IMG/VR virus record: IMGVR_UViG_3300043570_000998
Coordinates: 25,843-89,842 of that record
Strand: one strand, 5' to 3'
DNA: 64,000 bases
Source: a virus
In this document: piece by piece, positions 31,914 through 62,237 of the stretch
How positions within the stretch are numbered: the first letter of the stretch is position 1
How the letters are laid out: each line of letters starts with the position of its first letter
The notes under the pieces: model-generated
Databases searched by the model: none
What the model was told of the DNA's origin: nothing
What the model saw: the letters and a program-made list of their open reading frames with translations, nothing else
Translations under genes and position numbers: made by a program

Positions 31914-31942
31914 TTGACACCCCTCTTAGGTTCCTGTATAAT
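31914..31942 (+). promoter_or_regulatory. Promoter TTGACA-17-TATAAT for the tRNA cluster
   Basis: Perfect -35 (31914-31919) and -10 (31937-31942) with a 17-base spacer, 30 bases before the first tRNA. Confidence 0.92.
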
Positions 31943-35172: not shown

Positions 35173-35383
35173 CTCTCTAGAACAAATGGAGACCATTGTA
35201 GAAAACAATAAGTCTCTTCTATGGGATGGCTGGAATGTAAAAGAAATTACACAGTCACCAACTGGATGGATGAAGCCAAACGGTGTTTTCCGTAAGGGAG
35301 AATGGTTCGTTCAGAAAAACTACGATCTTAAATATGAAGGTTGGGAGATTCCCAATAAGTTTGTGGGGAATGATGCAAAGTGA
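35162..35383 (+). CDS. Hypothetical Trp-rich small protein
   Basis: 73 residues, starting 11 bases inside the deaminase gene after GGAGAAGA. Six Trp residues (WDGWN, GWMKPNG, EWFVQ). No family recognised. Overlaps the WhiB-like gene. Confidence 0.6.
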   Translation: MKINSLEQMETIVENNKSLLWDGWNVKEITQSPTGWMKPNGVFRKGEWFVQKNYDLKYEGWEIPNKFVGNDAK

Positions 35384-35654
35384 AAATTGGAAAAATGATG
35401 CACGATGCGAAGGTTATGATACCAACTTATTCTTTGACAAATATGAAGAAGATCTTAATCTTAGAGTAGGGATAGATAATCTTTGTTCGGGCTGTCCTGT
35501 TGCAAGATTATGTTTTGCTACTGGAGTCTCTCAAAAAGGTTGGGGAGTCTGGGGCGGAGTCTATCTTGAAAATGGAAAGATCTCACGAGAATTTAATAGG
35601 CATAGGTCAAAAGCTGATTGGGCTGAGACTTGGAAAAATCTAACAAACGATTAG
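35370..35654 (+). CDS. whiB: WhiB-like iron-sulfur transcription factor
   Basis: 94 residues from the ATG at 35370 (35373 possible). One early Cys (DARCEG), then LCSGCPVARLCFATG with C-x2-C-x5-C, then GVWGG, and a basic tail. These are the four cluster cysteines and Gly/Trp turn of the WhiB family, found almost only in actinobacteria and their phages. It would bind the host sigma factor and alter promoter choice. Confidence 0.93.
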   Translation: MMQSENWKNDARCEGYDTNLFFDKYEEDLNLRVGIDNLCSGCPVARLCFATGVSQKGWGVWGGVYLENGKISREFNRHRSKADWAETWKNLTND

Positions 35655-51800: not shown

Positions 51801-51991
51801 TACTCTACAATCTCCATTTCGATACAGTTATAAAGGTCTTCCCCTTGATAAGACATCTGAACTAGGTCTTGTGCCATAGTCTCTCTGAAATAATCTAGTT
51901 TCTCTTCTAGAGTTGCTTCCTCGCTAAACATCTCAAAGAGTGGGTCTTCGTCAAGGTTGAACTCAAAGGTAATAGTTCCTCGTGCAATCAT
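51800..51991 (-). CDS. Small acidic hypothetical protein
   Basis: 63 residues. TITFEFNLDEDPLFEMFSEEATLEEKLDYF. Strongly acidic; DNA-mimic type is possible but unproven. Confidence 0.6.
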   Translation of the reverse strand: MIARGTITFEFNLDEDPLFEMFSEEATLEEKLDYFRETMAQDLVQMSYQGEDLYNCIEMEIVE

Positions 51992-52152
51992 TACTTATCT
52001 CCAAAGTTATTGCTGTCATAGGGGTCAATCATTGCTTCCCAATCACCGTCAGGCATATCTTCGTGCTGAATGATAGCCAACTCGATTGCTTGCTCTTCGC
52101 TATCTGCTTCTACCCAATAGGTAGCATTGTATTCTACTTGATAAGTCTTCAT
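51991..52152 (-). CDS. Small acidic hypothetical protein
   Basis: 53 residues. YQVEYNATYWVEADSEEQAIELA: same strand-(E)ADSEEQA-helix pattern as the 51398 and 52611 proteins, so likely paralogues. Confidence 0.6.
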   Translation of the reverse strand: MKTYQVEYNATYWVEADSEEQAIELAIIQHEDMPDGDWEAMIDPYDSNNFGDK

Positions 52153-52153
52153 C

Positions 52154-52327
52154 TTACTCCTCGTCCATAAATTTGATGAATGTCTTTATTAGGTTTAGTC
52201 CAATTATAGCATTGAGGTACGACACGGAACTATCGTTCAGCAACTCGTCAATCTTGGTCGTAATCTCTTGCTTGACAGATTCCCTGGATTCTAAAATGGC
52301 ATCCGTAATCATTTCTCTGCTGGTCAT
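52154..52327 (-). CDS. Small helical hypothetical protein
   Basis: 57 residues, AAGGTGTCC upstream region. Helical, ending KTFIKFMDEE. Coupled to its neighbours. Confidence 0.55.
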   Translation of the reverse strand: MTSREMITDAILESRESVKQEITTKIDELLNDSSVSYLNAIIGLNLIKTFIKFMDEE

Positions 52328-52554: not shown

Positions 52555-52621
52555 TGCTCATATCCTCTCCACAGAACATACAGTAGTCACCGTCATTAGG
52601 GACACAGTTATCACTCTTCAT
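52544..52621 (-). CDS. Tiny zinc-ribbon-like peptide
   Basis: 25 residues with CVPND..CMFCG. Overlaps both neighbours. Weakly supported but the Cys pattern matches other peptides of this bank. Confidence 0.4.
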   Translation of the reverse strand: MKSDNCVPNDGDYCMFCGEDMSNEY

Positions 52622-52823
52622 CTTCAGGCTCACATTCACACTCTTCAATGTCTGATTCACAGTCTTCACACACTTCTCCATCTTCTTCAATCTCTAACTC
52701 ATCAGTACCGTGATAGTAGTCATTGAGATTTTTGAGGAAGATATCATAAGCCTCATCTTCAGTTTCAGCAATGATACCCTCAGCCACATATTCATATGTA
52801 GCACGAACATCAAACTTCTTCAT
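52611..52823 (-). CDS. Small acidic protein with Cys-rich tail
   Basis: 70 residues from the ATG at 52823. VRATYEYVAEGIIAETEDEAYDIF (strand then acidic helix) and CEDCESDIEECECEPEDEE. Downstream of the first copy of the reiterated promoter. Confidence 0.65.
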   Translation of the reverse strand: MKKFDVRATYEYVAEGIIAETEDEAYDIFLKNLNDYYHGTDELEIEEDGEVCEDCESDIEECECEPEDEE

Positions 52824-52852
52824 TTCATACCTTTCATTAGGGGATACTTCTA

Positions 52853-52881
52853 TTATACTGCGTACCACCGACATAAAACAA
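52853..52881 (-). promoter_or_regulatory. Reiterated promoter element, copy 1
   Basis: TGTTTTATGTCGGTGGTA then N5 and TATAAT on the complement. Drives the gene starting at 52823. The box GGGGCGCA lies 75 bases upstream. Confidence 0.75.
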
Positions 52882-52968
52882 GAGGAATTCGGGTGATTTT
52901 TTTAGAGGTTCGTAATTGATTTTTAATGATTAACTATCTATGTTTAGAAATTTTGGGGCGCAGCTCCT

Positions 52969-52977
52969 GTGGATAAC
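52969..52977 (-). promoter_or_regulatory. DnaA-box-like site
   Basis: TGTGGATAA, perfect consensus on the complement, adjacent to the GGGGCGCA box. Confidence 0.55.
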
Positions 52978-53004
52978 TTATCCCCAATCGATCCCCCTAG
53001 GGGG

Positions 53005-53025
53005 AGGCAGTTTAGACTGTTGCCT
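53005..53025 (-). other. Post-stop hairpin 1
   Basis: AGGCA / TGCCT stem with a CAGTCTAAAC-type loop, 13 bases after the DUF932 stop. Related hairpins follow two more genes. No U-run, so not a standard terminator. Confidence 0.5.
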
Positions 53026-53037
53026 AGCAGTTAGGGA

Positions 53038-54060
53038 TTAGACTCCCAGCATTACGGAAGCAACGACACGAGCAAGACGGTTCTTCTCTGCCGTGATAGC
53101 AGGGTCAAAACCACTAGCACCAGCCAAGATGTTTTCGGTGTTACCACCACGAGCAGTCCTGTGCCAATCAAGGCGTTCGGTGAGAGCGTTGAGAGTACCC
53201 CACGCCGTTCCTGTAATCGTGTTGTTGAAGTCACCAACATAAATGTCGTTGATGAGGTCAATCTTGTTCTCGTGCTTTTTGAACGAACCCTTGCTATCCT
53301 TTTCAGGAGCAGGGTAAGCGAGAGCAACAATCTGGTCAAACTCTGCCTTTGTGACTTCGGTTTCAATCATAGCGTTAGCCATAATGGAAAACTCGTCAAG
53401 GTAAGTCTGTGCCAAGCCCAATGCTTCACGAGCAACTTGAACCTTACCGTCAGCAGTCTGCGTGTGACGGATTTTGAACGACTGCTTGACATTACGCCAC
53501 TTGCCAACTCCGCCACCAAGAGCAAGGTTGAGAGTGTTAGCACACACAACACGAACAGGCGTGATACTTGCCATAATGGAGATAGAGCCGTCGTGACTTG
53601 TGTTGATGAGTAGGTAGTTGTCAATCTTGTCAGCACGACCATTAGGGTCAAGCGTGATTGAATTGTCAAGAGCAAGCGAGCCAAAGACTACACGACCACC
53701 CTTGATTGAACCAGCGGTTTCCCAACGACCACCACCGTCAAGCAGGTTGTCACCAAAAGTGAACAAGTCCTCGTTTTGGAGAGTGTGGTATCGTTCTCCA
53801 ACTACGCCAAGCACATCATTCTGTGTCTTGTCAAATGGGTTAGTACGGCAGACAAAGTAGTTTGTCTTGTCCGATACATATCCCTCTGGAAATGACAGTT
53901 CTTCCAAACGGACATTCCAATTATCAAGGTGAGCGAGTTTGAGCATTTCGGAAGTCTTTACTTCCTCTTCAAACACAGTACCCAACTTGTGCCAAGCAGG
54001 TTCTCGCAAAGAAGCAAAAGCCACTTCGCCATTAGCACCAATTTCTAAATCGTGAGCCAT
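53038..54060 (-). CDS. DUF932 family (TIGR03299-like) phage/plasmid protein
   Basis: 340 residues. MAHDLEIGANGEVAFASLREPAWHKLGTV is the characteristic start; GVVGERYHTLQNEDLF, SHDGSISIMASITPVRVVCANTLNLAL and GTAWGTLNALTERLDW follow in family order. Function not established; common in large actinophages. Appears less AT-rich than its neighbours by eye. Confidence 0.92.
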   Translation of the reverse strand: MAHDLEIGANGEVAFASLREPAWHKLGTVFEEEVKTSEMLKLAHLDNWNVRLEELSFPEGYVSDKTNYFVCRTNPFDKTQNDVLGVVGERYHTLQNEDLFTFGDNLLDGGGRWETAGSIKGGRVVFGSLALDNSITLDPNGRADKIDNYLLINTSHDGSISIMASITPVRVVCANTLNLALGGGVGKWRNVKQSFKIRHTQTADGKVQVAREALGLAQTYLDEFSIMANAMIETEVTKAEFDQIVALAYPAPEKDSKGSFKKHENKIDLINDIYVGDFNNTITGTAWGTLNALTERLDWHRTARGGNTENILAGASGFDPAITAEKNRLARVVASVMLGV

Positions 54061-54089
54061 TGTATACCTTTCGTTTTGTTGTTAGTTCT

Positions 54090-54118
54090 ATTATACAGCC
54101 GACCACCGACATATAACT
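54090..54118 (-). promoter_or_regulatory. Reiterated promoter element, copy 2
   Basis: AGTTATATGTCGGTGGTC-N5-TATAAT on the complement; GGGGCGCA box 63 bases upstream. Followed by AAAGGTATACA and the DUF932 ATG. Confidence 0.85.
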
Positions 54119-54206
54119 ATTTCAGGGAACATTTTGGGAGCTTCGTAACCTAACCGTAATAAGTATGTTCTAACAAATCGGGGGCGCAAATCGATCCCCT
54201 ACCCAT

Positions 54207-54258
54207 ACAAAAATCCCCCTGTTTACCAGCAGTCTATCCAGACCACTTCACAGGGGGA
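54207..54258 (-). terminator. Terminator after minus-strand tRNA-Asp
   Basis: Stem TCCCCCTGT / ACAGGGGGA (27-base loop with an inner GTCT/AGAC hairpin), then a U-run on the complement. Confidence 0.75.
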
Positions 54259-54369
54259 CTAATGTGTGAAAGTTTATTTTAGTAAAGACCCATCATTTCA
54301 CCGTAGTAACTTCTTTACCTAGACAGTTCCTATATATCAACTGACAACTTCAACCTCTGTTTCAAGGTG

Positions 54370-54441
54370 CGATTTCACAGGGACTCGAACCCTGACTACT
54401 ACTTCGACAGAGTAGCGTGATAACCTTTTCACTATGAAACC
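54370..54441 (-). tRNA. tRNA-Asp(GTC), minus strand
   Basis: Acceptor GGTTTCA/TGAAATC, anticodon stem CTACT/AGTAG with loop CTGTCGA. Different in sequence from the plus-strand tRNA-Asp. D arm is irregular (TAGTGAAAAGGTTATCAC). Confidence 0.88.
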
Positions 54442-54468
54442 TAGTGTATCTCTATGTAGTTTTAGATT

Positions 54469-54490
54469 GGGTAGTTTTATGTGATACCCA
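54469..54490 (-). other. Post-stop hairpin 2
   Basis: GGGTA / TACCC stem, 12 bases after the stop of the gene at 54502. Loop TCACATAAAAC matches the others. Confidence 0.5.
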
Positions 54491-54501
54491 GCACATTCTC
54501 G

Positions 54502-54951
54502 TTAGAGAAGTTCCAGAACCGAATTGTAGGTTGAGGAAGTAACGAACTCTTGCGGAGTAAGACGGAGAAGAGCGAGTGTCTTTTCCAACTCTTGGAGTTT
54601 GCTTGCCGTTCCGCCGTATCCGCTAGGGCTGTTTGGTTCGACAGGTGGCTTTCCCAAGTCAAACTGCTCAATGAGGTTAGCCCCAACTGTCAGGTCTAGA
54701 TTACCGTTGTATCCACGATTTGAGATACGAATGGTGTCTACCCACTCACCCTCAAAGATTTCCTGCCCACCAACAGTAATAATGTTGGCAACCATTTCAG
54801 CAATACGCTTGGTGTAAGCCTTGCGTTCGTACTTGTATTCCTCAACCTTTGTGGGGTATTCAGCGATTTCAGTTTTCAGTTGTGCTACCTTGTCCTCAAC
54901 CATTGTGAGAACACTTGCGGTAGGGATTTTTACAGAGATACTGCGAGCCAT
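54502..54951 (-). CDS. Hypothetical protein with coiled-coil region
   Basis: 149 residues from the ATG at 54951. IPTASVLTMVEDKVAQLKTEIAEYPTKVEEYKYERKAYTKRIAE is helical/coiled; the rest is beta with GYGGTASKLQELEKTLALLRLTPQEFV. No family recognised. Confidence 0.7.
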   Translation of the reverse strand: MARSISVKIPTASVLTMVEDKVAQLKTEIAEYPTKVEEYKYERKAYTKRIAEMVANIITVGGQEIFEGEWVDTIRISNRGYNGNLDLTVGANLIEQFDLGKPPVEPNSPSGYGGTASKLQELEKTLALLRLTPQEFVTSSTYNSVLELL

Positions 54952-54982
54952 TTGTTTAGTCCTTTCTATTGGCTGTATTACT

Positions 54983-55011
54983 ATTATACTGTGGGGGTAT
55001 GACATATAACT
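54983..55011 (-). promoter_or_regulatory. Reiterated promoter element, copy 3
   Basis: AGTTATATGTCATACCCC-N5-TATAAT on the complement. No GGGCGCA box within the same distance. Confidence 0.85.
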
Positions 55012-55024
55012 ATTGAGTTAGAGT

Positions 55025-55045
55025 GGGTAGTTTAGTCTGATACCC
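55025..55045 (-). other. Post-stop hairpin 3
   Basis: GGGTA / TACCC stem with loop TCAGACTAAAC, 11 bases after the stop of the gene at 55057. Confidence 0.5.
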
Positions 55046-55056
55046 AGCAGATACGA

Positions 55057-55209
55057 TTACTTGGAAGTAACCGTAGTCCAACGAGGCTGTCCAGCAACAT
55101 CAAGACGGACACGGAATGAACCGTTTGCGTTCTTGACAATCTCCTGAACCGTTCCCGAAACACCAGACTTCTGCGTGGTGAGGGTCGAACCGATTTCGAT
55201 TTCCGACAT
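55057..55209 (-). CDS. Small beta-rich hypothetical protein
   Basis: 50 residues from the ATG at 55209. IGSTLTTQKSGVSGTVQEIVKNANGSFRVRLDV looks like an SH3-like barrel. Function unknown. Confidence 0.65.
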   Translation of the reverse strand: MSEIEIGSTLTTQKSGVSGTVQEIVKNANGSFRVRLDVAGQPRWTTVTSK

Positions 55210-55264
55210 ATTATTACCTTGCTTCCTTGTAGTGAGCCAACTTGTTGTTTGCTTCGTTATTACC

Positions 55265-55293
55265 ATTATACAGGCTGGGAAAGAGTTTGTCAA
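55265..55293 (-). promoter_or_regulatory. Promoter TTGACA-17-TATAAT
   Basis: Perfect hexamers on the complement, 56 bases before the 50-residue gene. Confidence 0.88.
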
Positions 55294-55361
55294 GCCTTTT
55301 CTCAAAGTTTTTTATTTATTTTGTGGGGACTTCCGACTTCGTTTCCCTTGCCTGTAATACA

Positions 55362-55390
55362 AGTATACCAACGACCACCGACATATAACT
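55362..55390 (-). promoter_or_regulatory. Reiterated promoter element, copy 4
   Basis: AGTTATATGTCGGTGGTC-N5-TATACT on the complement; GGGGTGCGCA box 53 bases upstream. It lies upstream of the TTGACA promoter and no gene starts between them, so the 50-residue gene may have two promoters. Confidence 0.75.
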
Positions 55391-55562
55391 AATCGAATCT
55401 GGAGATTTTTGTAACAGTTCGTAACTTGTTTGTCATAACAAAGGGGTGCGCAGGTCCACCGATCTTGGCAGGGTACTAAGAAAGGACAGTTTATAAAGGT
55501 CATATCCAGGACCTATCACCACTGCAGGAAAGGACAAGAATACTACAGTGGGAGACTAGCGG

Positions 55563-55967
55563 CTATATCTCTTCAATATTATCAACTTCAAATGAGTGAA
55601 CAGTAAAGTCTTCAACCTCAGTATTGAAGGCATCCATTCTAACATCTTCAATTGAAAGGCTGTCAACATCGAAGTTTGAAGGAACCAGCAATGTTGCTTC
55701 CGCAGTAAGAGAAATGCTAACGGTGATTTCTTTCAGGAGCGAGAGAGCAAACACATCGGCAATAGAATTTGCCAAAATATTTACGTCAACGTCTTCACTT
55801 TGCTCAATCGACAAAGCGTCCAAAAGAATCAATCGAACATTCTCCACGTCCTGAGAGTAGTCCTGCTTGATACGGTCATTGTCATTACGAAGTGATTTGA
55901 CTTCAAATTCCAACAACTCAATCTGTCGTCGTAGGTTTGTAAGTACTGGGTGCTGATTGTCTTCCAT
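55563..55967 (-). CDS. Hypothetical protein, coiled coil plus acidic repeats
   Basis: 134 residues. N-terminal coiled coil (LRRQIELLEFEVKSLRNDNDRIKQD), C-terminal Val/Asp/Glu-rich strands. No family recognised. TAATG coupling upstream. Confidence 0.7.
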   Translation of the reverse strand: MEDNQHPVLTNLRRQIELLEFEVKSLRNDNDRIKQDYSQDVENVRLILLDALSIEQSEDVDVNILANSIADVFALSLLKEITVSISLTAEATLLVPSNFDVDSLSIEDVRMDAFNTEVEDFTVHSFEVDNIEEI

Positions 55968-56227
55968 TAGTTGTCCTCTTCCATTCCACCGATTTCGATA
56001 AGTTCACCAATAGTTGCGGTAAGAGCGGTGAAGTCCTCTTCCGACAGTAGGAGTTCTGACATAGCAAATGCCATAAGCCCTGTGATTGTTTGTCCAAAGT
56101 TATTCAGGGCATAGTTACGCTCGTCTTCTGTTTCTGCTTCCATTACAAGAAAGCCAGCGTACATAACCATAGGGTCTACGGCAATATCTTCACTTACTTT
56201 TCGTAGAGCAAATGCCTTGTCTAACAT
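55967..56227 (-). CDS. Hypothetical protein
   Basis: 86 residues. Helical, Met/Glu-rich (MAFAMSELLLSEEDFTALTATIGELIE). No family recognised. Confidence 0.65.
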   Translation of the reverse strand: MLDKAFALRKVSEDIAVDPMVMYAGFLVMEAETEDERNYALNNFGQTITGLMAFAMSELLLSEEDFTALTATIGELIEIGGMEEDN

Positions 56228-56254
56228 ATTTGTCCTCTCGTTGTTTATATTATA

Positions 56255-56283
56255 ATTATACAGGTGACCTACGACATCAAACT
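56255..56283 (-). promoter_or_regulatory. Reiterated promoter element, copy 5
   Basis: AGTTTGATGTCGTAGGTC-N5-TATAAT on the complement; GTGGGCGCA box 52 bases upstream. Confidence 0.85.
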
Positions 56284-56349
56284 CTGGGAATCTGGACAGT
56301 TAGTCGTAATTCTTAATAACGGTTTGGTAACGAGGTGGGCGCAGCTCCC

Positions 56350-56523
56350 TCAGTCAGCCATCACCAAACGATGTTCAGCCACAGAGTCATAGATAAATGC
56401 CTTTGGGTAAAAATCCTTGACACCATTCAGAAATAACTCTGCCTGTTCCAAGTGACGGAACGTTGCCAACTTGCCATCGGTGTCGCCATTCCAAACCTGA
56501 TACTTCAATACATAGTCAGTCAT
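56350..56523 (-). CDS. Small hypothetical protein
   Basis: 57 residues, ATG within the overlap of the upstream gene. YVLKYQVWNGDTDGKLATF then helical. No family recognised. Confidence 0.6.
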   Translation of the reverse strand: MTDYVLKYQVWNGDTDGKLATFRHLEQAELFLNGVKDFYPKAFIYDSVAEHRLVMAD

Positions 56524-56671
56524 TATATTCCCCTATCTCCGTGCTACCCTCAATAAATTCATAGTCGTTTGCGTTGGGGAACTGAGTGTATTCCATATTG
56601 TCCAACACAAAGTCAAGGTCATTAGTGTCCACAACAAATGTGTGATGAACGGTTATTAGATGTTTAGTCAT
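56516..56671 (-). CDS. Small acidic hypothetical protein
   Basis: 51 residues, overlapping both neighbours. Beta start (HLITVHHTFVVDTNDLDFVLD) and acidic end. Confidence 0.55.
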   Translation of the reverse strand: MTKHLITVHHTFVVDTNDLDFVLDNMEYTQFPNANDYEFIEGSTEIGEYND

Positions 56672-56766
56672 TAGTAGTCCTCTCCGAACATATTCAGTAT
56701 AGCAAGTACCTCGTCTTTTGTCAAGGCTTCGACACGTTCCCAGTCAATTACGTTTTCCCAATTCAT
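56671..56766 (-). CDS. Tiny acidic hypothetical protein
   Basis: 31 residues, single helix (WERVEALTKDEVLAILNMFG). TAATG overlaps on both sides. Confidence 0.5.
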   Translation of the reverse strand: MNWENVIDWERVEALTKDEVLAILNMFGEDY

Positions 56767-56831
56767 TACTTATCCTTTTCTTCACATTGATTACAGTATC
56801 CCCATAGGGCAAATTGTTCACAGTCTTCCAT
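56766..56831 (-). CDS. Tiny Cys-containing peptide
   Basis: 21 residues with C..CNQC. TAATG overlaps on both sides support translation. Confidence 0.45.
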   Translation of the reverse strand: MEDCEQFALWGYCNQCEEKDK

Positions 56832-56920
56832 TACTGTTCTCCAAACGTAGGGTCGCAGGGGTAGCAATAAGGCTCTCCCTCGTCACGATTAGTTTCATTA
56901 GCACAAGAGTCACACTTCAT
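56831..56920 (-). CDS. Tiny zinc-ribbon protein
   Basis: 29 residues with CDSC and CYPC pairs. TAATG overlaps on both sides. Confidence 0.55.
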   Translation of the reverse strand: MKCDSCANETNRDEGEPYCYPCDPTFGEQ

Positions 56921-57192
56921 TAGTCCTCGTCCTCTAAGAATCCCTCTAAGCGGTGTTGTTCGATAAAAGTCCAAGCGTCTACAAACTGACTGTCACGATA
57001 CGTCACGCCCATTGGCAATTCGATAACCTCGTTGTAGTCACCTTGATTACACGCCACGATTGCGGCGACGGCAGACTGAACCATAAACTGCGGAATAGGC
57101 GGATACACATTAGAGGCAAAGTGAAGACTCACCATATCCTCTAATTGGATATCGCCTAATTCTTTGATACCCTCTACAAACATTCTTCCCAT
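56920..57192 (-). CDS. Hypothetical protein
   Basis: 90 residues. DMVSLHFASNVYPPIPQFMVQSAVAAIVACNQGDYNEVIELP. Common pattern of small phage proteins; no family name recalled. First gene after promoter copy 6. Confidence 0.65.
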   Translation of the reverse strand: MGRMFVEGIKELGDIQLEDMVSLHFASNVYPPIPQFMVQSAVAAIVACNQGDYNEVIELPMGVTYRDSQFVDAWTFIEQHRLEGFLEDED

Positions 57193-57216
57193 TGTGTTCC
57201 TTTCATCGATAGTCTA

Positions 57217-57245
57217 ATTATACAGGGTAGCACCGACATATAACT
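57217..57245 (-). promoter_or_regulatory. Reiterated promoter element, copy 6
   Basis: AGTTATATGTCGGTGCTA-N5-TATAAT on the complement. Overlaps the stop of the upstream gene; no GGGCGCA box. Confidence 0.8.
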
Positions 57246-57366
57246 ATGCCAGATACATTTCTACTAGGTATAGGTCCTCGTCGTGCTCAGGGCAGACTGC
57301 TGAATACCCTGGCGATACGCCATAGTAAACAACGGCGGTATCACATCGGTTACAGTATCGTTTCAT
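57244..57366 (-). CDS. Small zinc-binding protein
   Basis: 40 residues. CNRC and CPEH. Stop-start overlap with the upstream gene at 57366. Ends inside promoter copy 6. Confidence 0.6.
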   Translation of the reverse strand: MKRYCNRCDTAVVYYGVSPGYSAVCPEHDEDLYLVEMYLA

Positions 57367-57644
57367 TAGTGCTTAGCCAGCCATAACTCTATGTTGTTAG
57401 CAATATCCCAGATAGCAAGTTGGTTGTGCTTGTTGCCCAAGTCTATTGCTTCTGTAACATCAGCAACCCATACGGTGCGGTCATAGTAAGTTACGCCAGA
57501 CACAGGATTAGTCCACACGCCCACATACTGCCCCTCTATGATATTTTCAGGGGTAGTGTTATAGAGAGCCACCCAATATCCACTAGTGGCACTAGTGATA
57601 AGAGTAAACTCGTCACCGTCTTTGATATAAGTTCCGTCGTTCAT
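57366..57644 (-). CDS. Hypothetical protein
   Basis: 92 residues, beta-rich (EFTLITSATSGYWVALYNTTPENIIEG) then helical. No family recognised. Confidence 0.65.
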   Translation of the reverse strand: MNDGTYIKDGDEFTLITSATSGYWVALYNTTPENIIEGQYVGVWTNPVSGVTYYDRTVWVADVTEAIDLGNKHNQLAIWDIANNIELWLAKH

Positions 57645-57670
57645 TGTTGTCCTTTCGTTGGTATATCTCC

Positions 57671-57699
57671 ATTATAGCGTGTACCTATGACATATAACT
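57671..57699 (-). promoter_or_regulatory. Reiterated promoter element, copy 7
   Basis: AGTTATATGTCATAGGTA-N5-TATAAT-type on the complement (CGCTATAAT); AGGGCGCA box 56 bases upstream. Confidence 0.8.
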
Positions 57700-57775
57700 C
57701 TGGGATTTCGGGAAACGAATCGTAAGGTTAGTAATAGAGTTTATTGTGACAGGGAGGGCGCAAAATTTTTGATCC

Positions 57776-57841
57776 CTAGCTATTGAGCCACGCCAGCAGG
57801 AGGGTTAGTCCTGCCAGCGTAGCAACAATAAGAATTTCCAC
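57776..57841 (-). CDS. Tiny membrane peptide
   Basis: 21 residues, GTG in a TAGTG overlap. Nearly all one membrane span (ILIVATLAGLTLLLAWL). A similar 31-residue peptide is at 60411. Confidence 0.45.
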   Translation of the reverse strand: MEILIVATLAGLTLLLAWLNS

Positions 57842-58017
57842 TACTGTTCGCCATTCCAACAAGCGGAGATGAAACGGTCAGCCATAAACCGTTCATTGTC
57901 CTCTGCCATTATTCCTGCGAAGTCGTGAATGAGAGTGTCAAAAGTATTCTCGTCAATTTTGAGAGCGTAACAGTTGAGCAGTTGTGAGATAGTCACATAG
58001 TCTTTGCGTGTCATCAT
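57841..58017 (-). CDS. Small hypothetical protein
   Basis: 58 residues from the ATG in a TAATG overlap; reads TRKDYVTISQLLNCYALKIDENTFDTLIHDFAGIMAEDNERF. Helical. Recalls small phage proteins of unknown role. Confidence 0.65.
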   Translation of the reverse strand: MMTRKDYVTISQLLNCYALKIDENTFDTLIHDFAGIMAEDNERFMADRFISACWNGEQ

Positions 58018-58214
58018 TAGGATACACTCACCCATTCCATAGCGGTACGCAAAAGGTTGTCATAGTCACCAGACATAGATTGCGTAGTGTATTCGTTGAT
58101 TTTATCTTTGGTAACGCCACCCTTGCGGAGAGCATTGGATACAGCACCCATAATTGCGAATGCGTTTCCGTCTTGTCCTGTGAGTTGTACTTCGATTTCT
58201 GGATACTTTACCAT
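58017..58214 (-). CDS. Small hypothetical protein
   Basis: 65 residues. EVQLTGQDGNAFAIMGAVSNALRKGGVTKDKI: strand, then GNAF helix, as in a small protein found in many phages. Coupled to both neighbours. Confidence 0.7.
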   Translation of the reverse strand: MVKYPEIEVQLTGQDGNAFAIMGAVSNALRKGGVTKDKINEYTTQSMSGDYDNLLRTAMEWVSVS

Positions 58215-58417
58215 TAGTTGTTTTCCTTTTTTTGGTCGGCAATATAAGTGTTGAGAAAAATCAGTCGTTCCATTGACTCTGCCGAAACGCCTACCGAAAG
58301 AGCACCAGCCAATCTTGCGTAGAATGTGTGATTGTCAGGCTCTTCTGCTCTAATAATTTTACGCAAACGGTCATACTGTTCTTGTGTTGCTGGATTTTCG
58401 GGGAGTGAACCATTCAT
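58214..58417 (-). CDS. Small helical protein, paralogue of the 59771 gene
   Basis: 67 residues from the ATG at 58417. LRKIIRAEEPD..FYARLAGALSVGVSAESMERLIFLNTYI closely matches the protein at 59771-59959, so the two are duplicates. Confidence 0.7.
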   Translation of the reverse strand: MNGSLPENPATQEQYDRLRKIIRAEEPDNHTFYARLAGALSVGVSAESMERLIFLNTYIADQKKENN

Positions 58418-58447
58418 TTTGTTGTCCTTTTCTTTGTTCATATTATT

Positions 58448-58476
58448 ATTATACAGCAGGGGTACGACATATAACT
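58448..58476 (-). promoter_or_regulatory. Reiterated promoter element, copy 8
   Basis: AGTTATATGTCGTACCCC-N5-TATAAT on the complement; GTGGGCGCA box 52 bases upstream. Confidence 0.85.
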
Positions 58477-58546
58477 ATTCATTTTGGGGAAAACGCAACG
58501 ATCTTCTTAATTACGCAACAAACCTGCGTGGGCGCAGCTCCCCTGC

Positions 58547-59098
58547 CTAGATTGCCGACCCTCTCACGACAATCCAAATCAGAGCCTGTGCGGTGCGAGG
58601 TGTCAGACCAAACTCACCAGCGACCTGAACGACTGCCTGACTAATGGCGTGATACTGTCCCTGCGTAGGGCTGTCGTTTTTCATCTGGGCTGCTCTCATC
58701 ATCCACACATCTACAACCACAGCGTCAGTGTCGCCAGCAATAGCCTTAGCGAATGCGTTAGTTTTGAGACCCTTGAGAGCGTCAATGCCACCTGCCAACA
58801 CATCGTTAGCCATTTTAGTATTGTTCTTTAGACCAGACACAGAGTGTCCAAGCGAGAACGCCACTGCCTTAGTCACGTTAGACGACCAACGCTCACGTGG
58901 GGAGAATGCGGAAACAACGCCAGCACCAATCTCAAGCGAGGCGTTTAGGTTGTGAGCGACTGCCTGTGCCACTTCCTGTGCTTCGTGATACCAGACACTA
59001 GCCTGTTCGACCTGTCCAAGTGTCGCCTTGAGAATGAGCGAACGGAACAAATCCGTAGAGGTAGCGGTTACGATTTCGTTTGCGGTGAGAGTAGTCAT
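58547..59098 (-). CDS. DUF7178-like / HhH glycosylase-fold protein
   Basis: 183 residues from the ATG at 59098. ASVWYHEAQEVAQAVAHNLNASLEIGAGVVSAFSPRERWSSN..LGHSV..NNTKMANDVLAGG..LKGLKTNAFAKAI..DAVVVDVWMMRAA is an actinophage family with a DNA-glycosylase-like helical fold. Activity unproven. Confidence 0.8.
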   Translation of the reverse strand: MTTLTANEIVTATSTDLFRSLILKATLGQVEQASVWYHEAQEVAQAVAHNLNASLEIGAGVVSAFSPRERWSSNVTKAVAFSLGHSVSGLKNNTKMANDVLAGGIDALKGLKTNAFAKAIAGDTDAVVVDVWMMRAAQMKNDSPTQGQYHAISQAVVQVAGEFGLTPRTAQALIWIVVRGSAI

Positions 59099-59128
59099 TA
59101 CTTTGTCCTTTGTTTGGTTGATAGTTCT

Positions 59129-59157
59129 ATTATACATTCGACCTACGACATATAACT
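59129..59157 (-). promoter_or_regulatory. Reiterated promoter element, copy 9
   Basis: AGTTATATGTCGTAGGTC-N5-TATAAT on the complement; a TGCGCCCA box (opposite orientation) 56 bases upstream. Confidence 0.88.
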
Positions 59158-59247
59158 AGCAAAATTCCAGGGTATTTTTAATGCTTACGTAATTAAAGCA
59201 AGGATCTAAAATTGCGCCCACCCTGTGCGTAACCTTGGGGATAACCC

Positions 59248-59577
59248 CTAACGGTTAGCGTTGTGGCAACCAGCACACCGACCAGTGGAATCTCCATTGA
59301 GATAGAATAGACCGTTCACAGCGTAGTCGCACACAGCACAGATAGCATACATATCAGGAATGTCCTCGTCAGTGTCACAGTCACACACAGAATAGTTAGA
59401 GTAACAAAACGCACAGATAAGCGACCTGTCCAAGTCCTCGTTGATACATCCGCAGTAAATATACTGAACGCCACAGTTGCCACAGTGAGTAGAGGTGTCC
59501 CAAGCCGACTGAGGCTCTGTGACCATAGTTCCCATAGCCGTCTGGTAGAAATCTGAGTGAGTGTTTGAGTAAGCCAT
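59248..59577 (-). CDS. Cys-rich zinc-binding protein
   Basis: 109 residues from the ATG at 59577. Three Cys clusters: HCGNCG..CGC, CAFC..CDCD, CAVCDYAV..CAGCHN. Likely multiple zinc fingers or ribbons; target unknown. Confidence 0.75.
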   Translation of the reverse strand: MAYSNTHSDFYQTAMGTMVTEPQSAWDTSTHCGNCGVQYIYCGCINEDLDRSLICAFCYSNYSVCDCDTDEDIPDMYAICAVCDYAVNGLFYLNGDSTGRCAGCHNANR

Positions 59578-59604
59578 TTGCTTTTGTCCTTTCGTTATAT
59601 CAAC

Positions 59605-59633
59605 AGTATACCATTGACCACAGACATATAACT
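59605..59633 (-). promoter_or_regulatory. Reiterated promoter element, copy 10
   Basis: AGTTATATGTCTGTGGTC-N5-TATACT on the complement; GGGGCGCA box 54 bases upstream. Confidence 0.85.
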
Positions 59634-59770
59634 CTGGGGAATAGGAAAATGTTTTCTTAATTCGTAAATATGTTATAAAAAATTTTGGGGCGCAAATTTT
59701 GCAAAAATCTTGCGTGGGGAGAGGATTGTTTGCTCTTGCGAGGCTCACCTCTCCCCAAACTTATACGAAA

Positions 59771-59959
59771 CTATTTCGTGTTGAGAAAAATAAGTCGTTC
59801 CATAGCGTCACGCTCTACGCCTACGGTGAGTATTCCCGAAAGTGTTGCGTACAACATTTCGTTATTGTAAGTTGGGTACTGCTCACGAATGAGAGTTTTG
59901 AGTTTCTCGACTTGTTCCGTAGTGGCGAATTGACGAGGGAGAGAATCTGCGTTTGTCAT
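59771..59959 (-). CDS. Small helical protein, paralogue of the 58214 gene
   Basis: 62 residues. LKTLIREQYPT..MLYATLSGILTVGVERDAMERLIFLNTK. The ERLIFLNT end is identical to the 58214 protein. Confidence 0.7.
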   Translation of the reverse strand: MTNADSLPRQFATTEQVEKLKTLIREQYPTYNNEMLYATLSGILTVGVERDAMERLIFLNTK

Positions 59960-59986
59960 TTTTGTCCTTTTCTTTGTTATATTTAC

Positions 59987-60015
59987 ATTATACCGTAGGG
60001 GTACGACATCAAACT
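59987..60015 (-). promoter_or_regulatory. Reiterated promoter element, copy 11
   Basis: AGTTTGATGTCGTACCCC-N5-TATAAT on the complement. The next gene upstream ends inside it; no box. Confidence 0.8.
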
Positions 60016-60178
60016 ATTCGTTTTCACGAATGGCTTGTGTCTGGATAGCCTTGCGAGTACGCAAACGGTTAGGGCGATTGTCGTGAGTGCCAGCCGCAGA
60101 CGAGCGACGGAGTTCACGCATAGCCTCAATGTATGGCTTATTCTCAATGCCTTTGTGAGTTGGGTTCTTTTTCTTCAT
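60014..60178 (-). CDS. Small basic protein
   Basis: 54 residues from the ATG at 60178. Very basic (RELRRSSAAGTHDNRPNRLRTRKA). Likely nucleic-acid binding. Appears leaderless: TATACT-N6-ATG. Confidence 0.7.
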   Translation of the reverse strand: MKKKNPTHKGIENKPYIEAMRELRRSSAAGTHDNRPNRLRTRKAIQTQAIRENE

Positions 60179-60184
60179 AGTATT

Positions 60185-60212
60185 AGTATACATCAGACCA
60201 CCGACATATAAC
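60185..60212 (-). promoter_or_regulatory. Reiterated promoter element, copy 12 (leaderless)
   Basis: GTTATATGTCGGTGGTC-N5-TATACT on the complement, then N6 and ATG. GTGGGCGCA box 53 bases upstream. Confidence 0.85.
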
Positions 60213-60276
60213 CCCCCCAATTCGGGGAAACGCAATAATCCTTCGTAACTCGCAAAAATATTGCGTGGGCGCACCC

Positions 60277-60295
60277 TGTGGATAACTTATACACA
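60277..60295. promoter_or_regulatory. Inverted pair of DnaA-box-like sites
   Basis: TGTGGATAA (60277-60285) and TTATACACA (60287-60295) face each other next to the GTGGGCGCA box. Confidence 0.55.
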
Positions 60296-60322
60296 TTCCA
60301 TTTTTGGCATATGTCGATCCGC

Positions 60323-60418
60323 CTATTGTTCCAAATAGCACGAGAGGCAAATATCATAGGGGATAAATTCCTTAGACTGCTCGCTTACTTTTCTTCCACA
60401 GTCATTACATTTAGTCAT
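60323..60418 (-). CDS. Tiny zinc-ribbon protein
   Basis: 31 residues. CNDCG and CLSC pairs. Overlaps the upstream TM peptide. Confidence 0.6.
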   Translation of the reverse strand: MTKCNDCGRKVSEQSKEFIPYDICLSCYLEQ

Positions 60419-60506
60419 TTAGTTTACCTTCGATTAGCAACGCGATTAGATAGACGGTAGCGAAAATAGTTAGGATAAATCCGATATTGGATATGAGCAT
60501 TCCCAT
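60411..60506 (-). CDS. Tiny membrane peptide
   Basis: 31 residues. One span (ISNIGFILTIFATVYLIALLI) then a charged tail. ATG overlaps the upstream gene. Confidence 0.5.
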   Translation of the reverse strand: MGMLISNIGFILTIFATVYLIALLIEGKLND

Positions 60507-60509
60507 AGC

Positions 60510-60692
60510 CTATCGTTTCATCAACTGACGAGTGAGCGTTAGGGCTTCCTCGAAATCGTGATTCGTGAATACATTACCCTTAGCCAAACGGATAAGAGAA
60601 TTTAGACGGAGAGCCTTTTGCTTAGGCGTGAGAGCGTTGATATTGATATCCTCTGTTTCGTTGATATCAATTTCAATTTCTAATTCATTCAT
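60510..60692 (-). CDS. Small acidic-to-basic hypothetical protein
   Basis: 60 residues, CAAAGGACAG upstream. Acidic Ile/Glu start (LEIEIDINETEDIN) then a basic helical end. The start MNE is shared with the zinc-ribbon genes 60747, 61093 and 61584. Confidence 0.6.
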   Translation of the reverse strand: MNELEIEIDINETEDININALTPKQKALRLNSLIRLAKGNVFTNHDFEEALTLTRQLMKR

Positions 60693-60719
60693 TTTATTCT
60701 GTCCTTTGTTTATATCTTG

Positions 60720-60748
60720 ATTCTATCAGAGGGGTATGACAGGTAACT
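60720..60748 (-). promoter_or_regulatory. Reiterated promoter element, copy 13
   Basis: AGTTACCTGTCATACCCC-N4/5-TAGAAT on the complement. Overlaps the end of the upstream gene. Confidence 0.7.
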
Positions 60749-60884
60749 AGACTACCTGACCACAACCTGAGCAGTAGAGAGGAGAGAGATATTTTTCTCC
60801 ATACTCCAAGTGTCCAGCAGTAGAACCACATTCACACTTTATAGAGAACCTAGCCACTTGGCAGGTATTCATCCATTCATTCAT
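60747..60884 (-). CDS. Zinc-ribbon protein, paralogue group A
   Basis: 45 residues. CECGSTAGHLEYGEKYLSPLYCSGCG. Shares its pattern with the 61093 and 61584 genes; its leader and start are identical to the inverted gene at 61584 over about 24 bases. Confidence 0.75.
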   Translation of the reverse strand: MNEWMNTCQVARFSIKCECGSTAGHLEYGEKYLSPLYCSGCGQVV

Positions 60885-60918
60885 TTTAGTTTTCCTTTCT
60901 TTTTCTTTCTATATCTTT

Positions 60919-60948
60919 ATTCTAGCAGTGACCTACGACATATAACTA
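60919..60948 (-). promoter_or_regulatory. Reiterated promoter element, copy 14
   Basis: AGTTATATGTCGTAGGTC-N4/5-TAGAAT on the complement; GGGGCGCA box 88 bases upstream. Confidence 0.82.
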
Positions 60949-61021
60949 ACTATATGGCGTAACATTAGGTAACAGAATGGTAACGAATATGGGGAACTTA
61001 TACGCACCTCGTAACGCTGCC

Positions 61022-61068
61022 TGTGGATAACTTTTGGGGCGCATTTTCTTGTGCATAACTTATACACA
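61022..61068. promoter_or_regulatory. Cluster of DnaA-box-like sites
   Basis: TGTGGATAA (61022), TGTGCATAA (61050) and TTATACACA (61060) around a GGGGCGCA box. Densest such cluster in the minus-strand bank. Confidence 0.6.
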
Positions 61069-61092
61069 CCCCTTGCTAGGGGCGGTAGTTAG

Positions 61093-61233
61093 TTAGTGTT
61101 GCTTACCGCAACCATCACAGTATGAGTATGAGAGATACACTTCACCATATTCTAGGTGAGCACTAGTAGCACCACATTCACAGTTGTAAGAGAATCCGTT
61201 ACCTACTGGGCAACTATTTTTGAATTCATTCAT
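61093..61233 (-). CDS. Zinc-ribbon protein, paralogue group A
   Basis: 46 residues. CECGATSAHLEYGEVYLSYSYCDGCG. Closely matches the 60747 protein. First gene of the minus-strand bank, with a 137-base leader containing repeats. Confidence 0.75.
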   Translation of the reverse strand: MNEFKNSCPVGNGFSYNCECGATSAHLEYGEVYLSYSYCDGCGKQH

Positions 61234-61370
61234 TATTTTCTATCCTTATCTGAAACCTTGATATTTATTTGCTCTGATACTTACTTGCTAGGCTCACCTT
61301 GCGGATTATTTGCTAGGCTCATTATCTGAGGCTCACTATCTTTGGTTTCTCTGTTTATCTTTATATATTT
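61234..61370 (-). repeat. Leader with short direct repeats
   Basis: On the complement, TGAGCCTAGCAA occurs twice (61286-61296 and 61311-61321) with a third partial copy at 61328. It lies between promoter copy 15 and the 61233 gene. No credible gene; a 13-codon frame exists there. Confidence 0.5.
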
Positions 61371-61399
61371 AGTGTAACATCGACCTACGACATATAACT
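61371..61399 (-). promoter_or_regulatory. Reiterated promoter element, copy 15
   Basis: AGTTATATGTCGTAGGTC-N4/5-TACACT on the complement; GGGGCGCA box 73 bases upstream. Confidence 0.82.
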
Positions 61400-61517
61400 A
61401 CCCAAAACAGGCTAAAAATAGGGAAAACGCAATAATGTTGCGTAAGAGTATAAACAACGCAAGAAAATTTTGGGGCGCAAATTTTTATTTATTTTATTAT
61501 TTATCGGCGTGTCGTTT

Positions 61518-61546
61518 AGTTAGATGGGGTAGGTAGGTGCTATGCT
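61518..61546 (+). promoter_or_regulatory. Degenerate plus-strand copy of the reiterated promoter
   Basis: AGTTAGATGGGGTAGGTA-N5-TATGCT matches 14 of 18 core positions. It precedes the inverted zinc-ribbon gene at 61584, so the promoter was duplicated with the gene. Confidence 0.6.
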
Positions 61547-61583: not shown

Positions 61584-61709
61584 ATGAATGAAATCAAAAA
61601 GTTTGAACAAGATGTTTACTGCACAGATTGCGGTAAGTATGTTGGAACTAGTGTTCACTATGGACAGTATGCTCCAAACTTTACGGGCGAATGCCCTAGG
61701 GGTTGCTAG
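61584..61709 (+). CDS. Zinc-ribbon protein, inverted paralogue
   Basis: 41 residues, AAAGGAAAAC upstream. CTDCGKYVG..YGQYAPNFTGECPRGC: related to the minus-strand ribbons but with a different spacing of the second Cys pair. Confidence 0.7.
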   Translation: MNEIKKFEQDVYCTDCGKYVGTSVHYGQYAPNFTGECPRGC

Positions 61710-61947: not shown

Positions 61948-62067
61948 TTACTTATCCTTGAACATATCTTCATCAAACTTAGAAGCAACCCAGAAGCATA
62001 GTGTTCCAATAAGAATAGCTAAGCTGGGTGCTAAACAGATAATTATTATGATTTCGTTATAATTCAC
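61948..62067 (-). CDS. Tiny membrane protein
   Basis: 39 residues, GTG start overlapping the upstream stop. One span (IIIIICLAPSLAILIGTLCFWVA) and acidic tail. Confidence 0.55.
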   Translation of the reverse strand: MNYNEIIIIICLAPSLAILIGTLCFWVASKFDEDMFKDK

Positions 62068-62237
62068 GGTAGATCATTCTCTTCCAATTCATCTCTAGTA
62101 ATAAGACCAAAGTTCAATAGACAAGCGTTCACAATCTTTCTTGATACTCTAAACTCTTGTGAGATATGACGAGATGTTTTCTCTAATTGTACAAAATGTT
62201 CATTGAGAAATTCTTTTGTTAAGTGTTTTGTTTCCAT
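62064..62237 (-). CDS. Small HTH-like protein, leaderless
   Basis: 57 residues. LEKTSRHISQEFRVSRKIVNACLLNFGLITRDEL looks like an HTH. TATAAT-N6-ATG on the complement. Confidence 0.65.
   Translation of the reverse strand: METKHLTKEFLNEHFVQLEKTSRHISQEFRVSRKIVNACLLNFGLITRDELEENDLP

Follow-up and report, generated by a model that had tools for sequence, protein, structure and literature searches.

In the early regions of phages T4 and SPO1, many near-identical promoters each precede one or a few tiny genes, and these promoters are strong, activator-independent and used by the housekeeping holoenzyme. A wiring of phage genes to the host DNA-damage response is represented by tum of coliphage 186, which is under the control of host LexA within the SOS system, a mode of regulation that relies on derepression, employs one or two sites and belongs to temperate phages. 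In this study we analyzed a stretch of 64,000 nucleotides (the window), corresponding to positions 25843-89842 of the 89,842-bp IMG/VR virus record IMGVR_UViG_3300043570_000998, which carries a bank of tiny genes preceded by a reiterated promoter. The reference for this promoter is RecA-NDp, the LexA-independent mycobacterial DNA-damage promoter with the consensus 'tTGTCRgtg - 8 nt - TannnT' (PMC5656591), for which the M. tuberculosis form is TGTCGG-N10-TA-N3-T with the variants TGTCAG and TGTCAC (PMC8151990). In vivo binding work attributes the motif to PafBC (PMC6789036, PMC8223512), a WYL-domain heterodimer activated by single-stranded DNA (ssDNA), of which PafB reads the -26 motif and PafC sits on SigA domain 4, replacing the -35 contact (PMC11804915). 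From sequence comparison we consider it probable (probability about 0.7) that the bank consists of PafBC-type (RecA-NDp) promoters, which would be transcribed by host sigma-A RNA polymerase together with ssDNA-activated host PafBC.

Using a weight matrix of 29 positions (37.5 bits), we identified 16 minus-strand copies of the promoter between 52203 and 61399, which score 25.7-40.4; when the 89.8-kb record was shuffled 20 times with a first-order model, the highest score was 16.1. On the plus strand, a degenerate copy, AGTTAGATGGGGTAGGTAGGTGCTATGCT (61518-61546), lacks TGTC, scores 19.3, above the chance level, and drives outward from the bank toward a small open reading frame (ORF) at 61584-61709. 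All these copies are clustered in a bank of tiny genes that spans 9.3 kb, and no other position in the 89.8-kb record reached these scores. The first-pass annotation had counted 16 copies, 15 on the minus strand and the degenerate one on the plus strand; all 15 were recovered, the first of them ending at 52852 instead of 52853, and the plus-strand copy was confirmed as well, but one minus-strand copy at 52203-52231 had been overlooked, so that the count is 16 minus plus one plus. The consensus it had given, an 18-base block followed by N5-TATAAT, describes a real repeat but is too strict, because only 8 of the 16 minus copies fall within three mismatches. Its statement that the copies precede genes agrees with our observation that every minus copy points at a gene. 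It is hardly conceivable that the blocks are operators of a phage repressor, such as the stoperators of mycobacteriophage L5: many near-identical sites do lie within one region, but the distance to the -10 box is fixed in every minus copy, each is directed toward a gene, the sequence lacks palindromic symmetry, and none occurs outside the bank. The scattered arrangement of L5 sites was not found here, all copies being in one bank and each at a -10 box; no search was made for a repressor.

With TATAAT set at -12 to -7, the 18-base block is composed of two parts, AGTTATA at -35 to -29 and TGTC[G/A][G/T] at -28 to -23. The sequences TGTC and TAnnnT are invariant in 16 of 16 minus copies and their spacing is always 12 bases, while TGTC is followed by a purine in 15 of the 16; several copies in the window agree exactly with TGTCGGTG-N8-TATAAT. 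Among the relatives described below, the AGTT block (-35 to -32) was seen only in the nearest group, indicating that it is lineage-specific, and the TGTC part is common across the groups, so that the shared core is TGTCRG(TG)-N8-TAnnnT. This organization agrees with the PafBC promoters of mycobacteria and other Actinobacteria, in which TGTCRGTG at -28 to -21 stands 8 nt before TAnnnT, in directional orientation before a gene start and mostly without a consensus -35 box; the phage promoters likewise combine a TGTCRGTG-type core, TAnnnT 8 nt later, a directional position before a gene and no need of a consensus -35. Unlike their bacterial counterparts, the phage copies form dense banks of 10-25, serve small genes without assigned function rather than DNA-repair genes, and carry an AT-rich -10, lineage-specific upstream bases and a second form of the motif, TGTCRGACCC.

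The conservation of the core was examined in 55 loci that were fetched via the DUF932 protein with no use of the motif, by looking for combinations of hexamer and gap that are overrepresented ahead of -10-like boxes in five groups of relatives, A to E, of increasing distance. This unguided search returned the core TGTCRG-N10-TATAAT, with TGTCGG at gap 10 observed 60 times (0.29 expected), TGTCAG at gap 10 observed 71 times (0.49 expected), and AATGTC at gap 12 at the top of two groups (75 against 0.46 and 146 against 0.95 expected). TGTC-type hexamers were top-ranked in four of the five groups (A-D), each at far more than 100 times the expectation; in the most distant group E, TTGACA at gap 17 leads and TGTCAG at gap 10 is still found 24 times against 0.47 expected. 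Exact TGTCRG-N10-TATAAT is present in 17 of 30 related records, with up to 20 sites per record, nearly all on one strand, and a single control hit overall. A scan of IMG/VR with TGTCRGTGG-N7-TATAAT gave many multi-hit contigs among the matches listed, whereas the reversed pattern, employed as the control, matched 93 contigs once each, likewise among the matches listed. In 119 further loci (1.06 Mb) taken from the forward scan, TGTCRG-N10-TAnnnT occurs at 779 sites against 4 for the reversed controls; since these loci were selected by the motif, the fair estimate of enrichment is the one from the DUF932-fetched relatives. The first-pass annotation had proposed such a scan of the record and its relatives, and the outcome is that the motif is confined to the bank within the record and that its core is conserved in the relatives.

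The link with gene starts is equally clear in these loci: a ribosome-binding site and an ORF directly follow 660 of the 779 sites, and 66-83% of TGTC sites are gene-proximal, against 27-31% of the remaining -10-like sites there. Under a slightly wider definition, 1051 promoter-gene pairs were collected, representing 196 protein clusters with a median length of 68 amino acids, the start codon being located at a median of 30 nt past the -10 box. In a 112-kb relative with short terminal repeats, 9 of 12 sites are located at 2.4-8.5 kb, all oriented opposite to the late genes. These findings suggest a large and widespread clade, in which this freshwater phage and at least a hundred relatives carry such promoters before tiny genes. 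A scan of genome contigs with TATGTCGGTGGTC-N5-TATAAT yielded one chance match, inside a Bacteroides coding sequence.

The same phage also carries near-consensus TTGACA-17-TATAAT promoters, as had been noted in the first pass, for instance at 31914 (+), 46309 (+), 47906 (+) and 51106 (-), and one within the bank at 55265-55293 (-). A -35 box matching TTGACA in at least 5 of 6 positions was found in 12% of TGTC promoters, compared with 22% of the remaining TATAAT sites near genes and 9% of the background; the match is at most 4 of 6 in 88% of TGTC promoters, close to background, indicating that a consensus -35 is not required. These data bear on an improbable alternative, in which the bank is made of ordinary, constitutively strong early sigma-A promoters and the spacer block adds extended -10 or spacer contacts only. 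The -10 boxes are indeed very good, perfect TTGACA is present in 4% of TGTC promoters, and large phages often repeat strong promoters ahead of their small early genes, but a mere spacer would not be expected to keep TGTC so extremely conserved, and at a single distance, in divergent groups, and the coexistence of TTGACA promoters in the same phage implies that the TGTC class is maintained separately. The resemblance to the early banks of T4 and SPO1 thus concerns the many near-identical promoters before tiny genes, whereas the element employed here appears to be that of a host stress activator.

The WhiB genes, found in 25 of the 30 related records, and the relationship to Streptomyces phages indicate that the host is an actinobacterium. 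The DnaE-like polymerase is 54-56% identical to that of Streptomyces phages of the Stanwilliamsviridae (e.g. Angela and Wakanda), whose terminal, leftward-reading bank of small genes likewise contains a DUF932 gene; they differ in their host and in showing no TGTC promoters above control, as seen in the Angela bank and in the cultured actinophages described below. No WYL (PafBC-type) domain was detected in 58 phage records, including this one and several of 107-123 kb, so that the regulator is most likely host-encoded; a WYL regulator of the phage itself, considered as the activator, was rejected on this account. Likewise, Sigma70_r4 gave no match in this record and a phage sigma factor was rejected for it, while among the relatives 5 of 30 records match at E<=0.001, with one above the cut-off. 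Of the proposal in the first-pass annotation that a phage-specific sigma, activator or operator switches the whole bank at once, a common switch that uses the spacer region and not the -35 box is well supported, but a phage-specific sigma or activator is not, because the core equals a known host promoter class and neither Sigma70_r4 nor WYL is present. The WhiB-like protein that had been named as a candidate is encoded at 35283-35654 (+; PF02467 domain at 35388-35561), outside the bank and in another module, and no WhiB protein is known to read this -26 motif. It is accordingly unlikely, though less so than the other alternatives, that a phage-encoded activator or sigma-appropriating factor (WhiB or a small helix-turn-helix protein, for example) reads the block, the likeness to PafBC sites being convergence or binding-site takeover. 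The frequency of WhiB among the relatives, the existence of small DNA-binding-like proteins (such as that at 62064-62237, with a weak phrog_9759 match) and the lineage-specific AGTT at -35 to -32, as expected of a lineage-specific reader, would fit such a factor, but the shared core and its spacing equal a previously known host motif, this record has no Sigma70_r4 match, and WhiB is present also in group E records, where the motif is sparse. Participation of another host regulator of the same P1 motif, driving or co-driving the bank, is very improbable: ClgR was reported to recognize the LexA-independent recA P1 promoter (cited in PMC5656591), but later in vivo binding gives the motif to PafBC (PMC6789036, PMC8223512) and PafBC is seen bound to it in structures (PMC11804915).

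Several observations weigh against or limit the assignment to PafBC. Strict TGTCRG is found in just 5 of the 16 window copies, most of which read TGTC[GA]TA, with T outnumbering G at -23; the second form, TGTCRGACCC, is common in the relatives. In 15 cultured actinophages, including Streptomyces relatives, 14 hits against 11 for the control were obtained, with no enrichment and no bank, and the mycobacterial motif is reported not to be conserved in S. venezuelae (PMC9380542). The bank proteins are nearly all without assigned function in Pfam, PHROGs and PADLOC, and the DnaA-type boxes, TTACGA and the CRP-type palindrome of cousin phages, described at the end, suggest additional inputs. A literature search for PafBC or the proteasome in Nanopelagicales found nothing, and the host is assumed to carry pafBC.

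If the promoters are of the PafBC type, host RNA polymerase with housekeeping sigma-A would bind the TATAAT box, and the -35 box would be replaced by a requirement for the host WYL-domain heterodimer PafBC, which, when bound to ssDNA, would contact TGTCRGTG at -28 to -21 as well as sigma-A domain 4 ('sigma adaptation'). Because each small gene or short operon has its own copy, the whole bank would switch on together once ssDNA appears, presumably early in infection, the possible sources being nuclease attack on the incoming phage DNA, phage replication, or prior host damage such as by UV. This arrangement suggests that the phage lets the DNA-damage alarm of the host turn on phage genes, as do the LexA/SOS-controlled phage genes such as 186 tum, from which it differs in its use of an activator's motif and in having at least a dozen sites. 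There may be an even chance that freshwater actinophages of one large, widespread clade have reorganized their accessory early region around the ssDNA-sensing activator of the host, with dozens of PafBC promoters turning on takeover or counter-defence genes during resection or replication of the phage DNA. In a search of the literature no description of PafBC promoters on phages was found. If the reading is correct, hundreds of uncharacterized small phage genes gain a defined and testable switch, PafBC, which is associated in mycobacteria with drug tolerance and DNA repair, would also act in infection, and the motif could serve as a cheap means of detecting such gene banks in metagenomes and of predicting actinobacterial hosts that use PafBC.

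The minus-strand copies are arranged along the bank as follows. AGTTCCGTGTCGTACCTCAATGCTATAAT (52203-52231), the copy overlooked in the first pass, precedes ORF 51991-52152, and TGTTTTATGTCGGTGGTACGCAGTATAAT (52852-52880) precedes ORF 52611-52823. AGTTATATGTCGGTGGTCGGCTGTATAAT (TGTCGGTGGTC; 54090-54118) lies before the DUF932 gene, AGTTATATGTCATACCCCCACAGTATAAT (54983-55011) before gene 54502-54951, and AGTTATATGTCGGTGGTCGTTGGTATACT (55362-55390) serves gene 55057-55209, from which it is separated by the TTGACA promoter of the bank. AGTTTGATGTCGTAGGTCACCTGTATAAT (56255-56283), AGTTATATGTCGGTGCTACCCTGTATAAT (57217-57245), AGTTATATGTCATAGGTACACGCTATAAT (57671-57699) and AGTTATATGTCGTACCCCTGCTGTATAAT (TGTCGTACCCC; 58448-58476) precede genes 55967-56227, 56920-57192, 57366-57644 and 58214-58417, respectively. 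AGTTATATGTCGTAGGTCGAATGTATAAT (TGTCGTAGGTC; 59129-59157), which matches the first-pass consensus exactly, stands before the DUF7178 gene, and AGTTATATGTCTGTGGTCAATGGTATACT (59605-59633) before gene 59248-59577. AGTTTGATGTCGTACCCCTACGGTATAAT (59987-60015) and AGTTACCTGTCATACCCCTCTGATAGAAT (60720-60748), located before genes 59771-59959 and 60510-60692, overlap the stop codon of the upstream gene. In several of the copies at 54983-55011, 57217-57245, 59987-60015 and 60720-60748, the TAG of TAGTT is this stop codon, and promoter and gene end thus overlap. Downstream of GGTTATATGTCGGTGGTCTGATGTATACT (60185-60213), the ATG of gene 60014-60178 begins 7 nt after the -10 box, so that its transcript is probably leaderless. 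AGTTATATGTCGTAGGTCACTGCTAGAAT (60919-60947) and AGTTATATGTCGTAGGTCGATGTTACACT (61371-61399) precede genes 60747-60884 and 61093-61233.

Among the products of the bank, the DUF932 protein (53038-54060, -; PF06067, E=3e-49; phrog_1221) is encoded by the commonest gene behind this promoter in the relatives (72 loci), and the family of gene 54502-54951 is present behind it in 67 loci; the DUF7178 gene is located at 58547-59098 (-; PF23802, E=1e-33). For 60 cluster representatives, Pfam matches were limited to DUF932, GP88, DUF7178 and DUF1281_C, PHROGs gave unnamed families only, and a PADLOC search gave no match. A tRNA-Asp gene is present at 54369-54441 inside the bank, and two tRNA clusters are located separately at 32 and 43 kb.

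Further elements were noticed upstream of the promoters. Perfect DnaA-type boxes, TTATCCACA, are located in the window at 52968 (-), 60277 (-), 61022 (-), 48946 (+) and 48958 (+), and in the near group of relatives (L050-L055) the bank strand carries 39 where 0.65 are expected, most of them preceding the TGTC core by 80-120 bp; an origin, a terminator-linked element or control by DnaA may be considered as their role. A CRP/GlxR-like palindrome, TGTGA-N6-TCACA, absent from the window, occurs in cousin phages (L108-L226) at 241 sites in 1.06 Mb against one for a scrambled palindrome, about half of the sites being 45-110 bp upstream of the TGTC core. The sequence TGCGCCC is found 10 times in 89.8 kb, always in the bank (52956-61473). 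Counted from the -35 position, it typically lies some 60-70 bp upstream, and TTACGA(A) in groups A-C lies about 25 and 30-36 bp upstream. Given these upstream elements, the bank promoters may integrate several host signals, with the PafBC-type core nearest to RNA polymerase.

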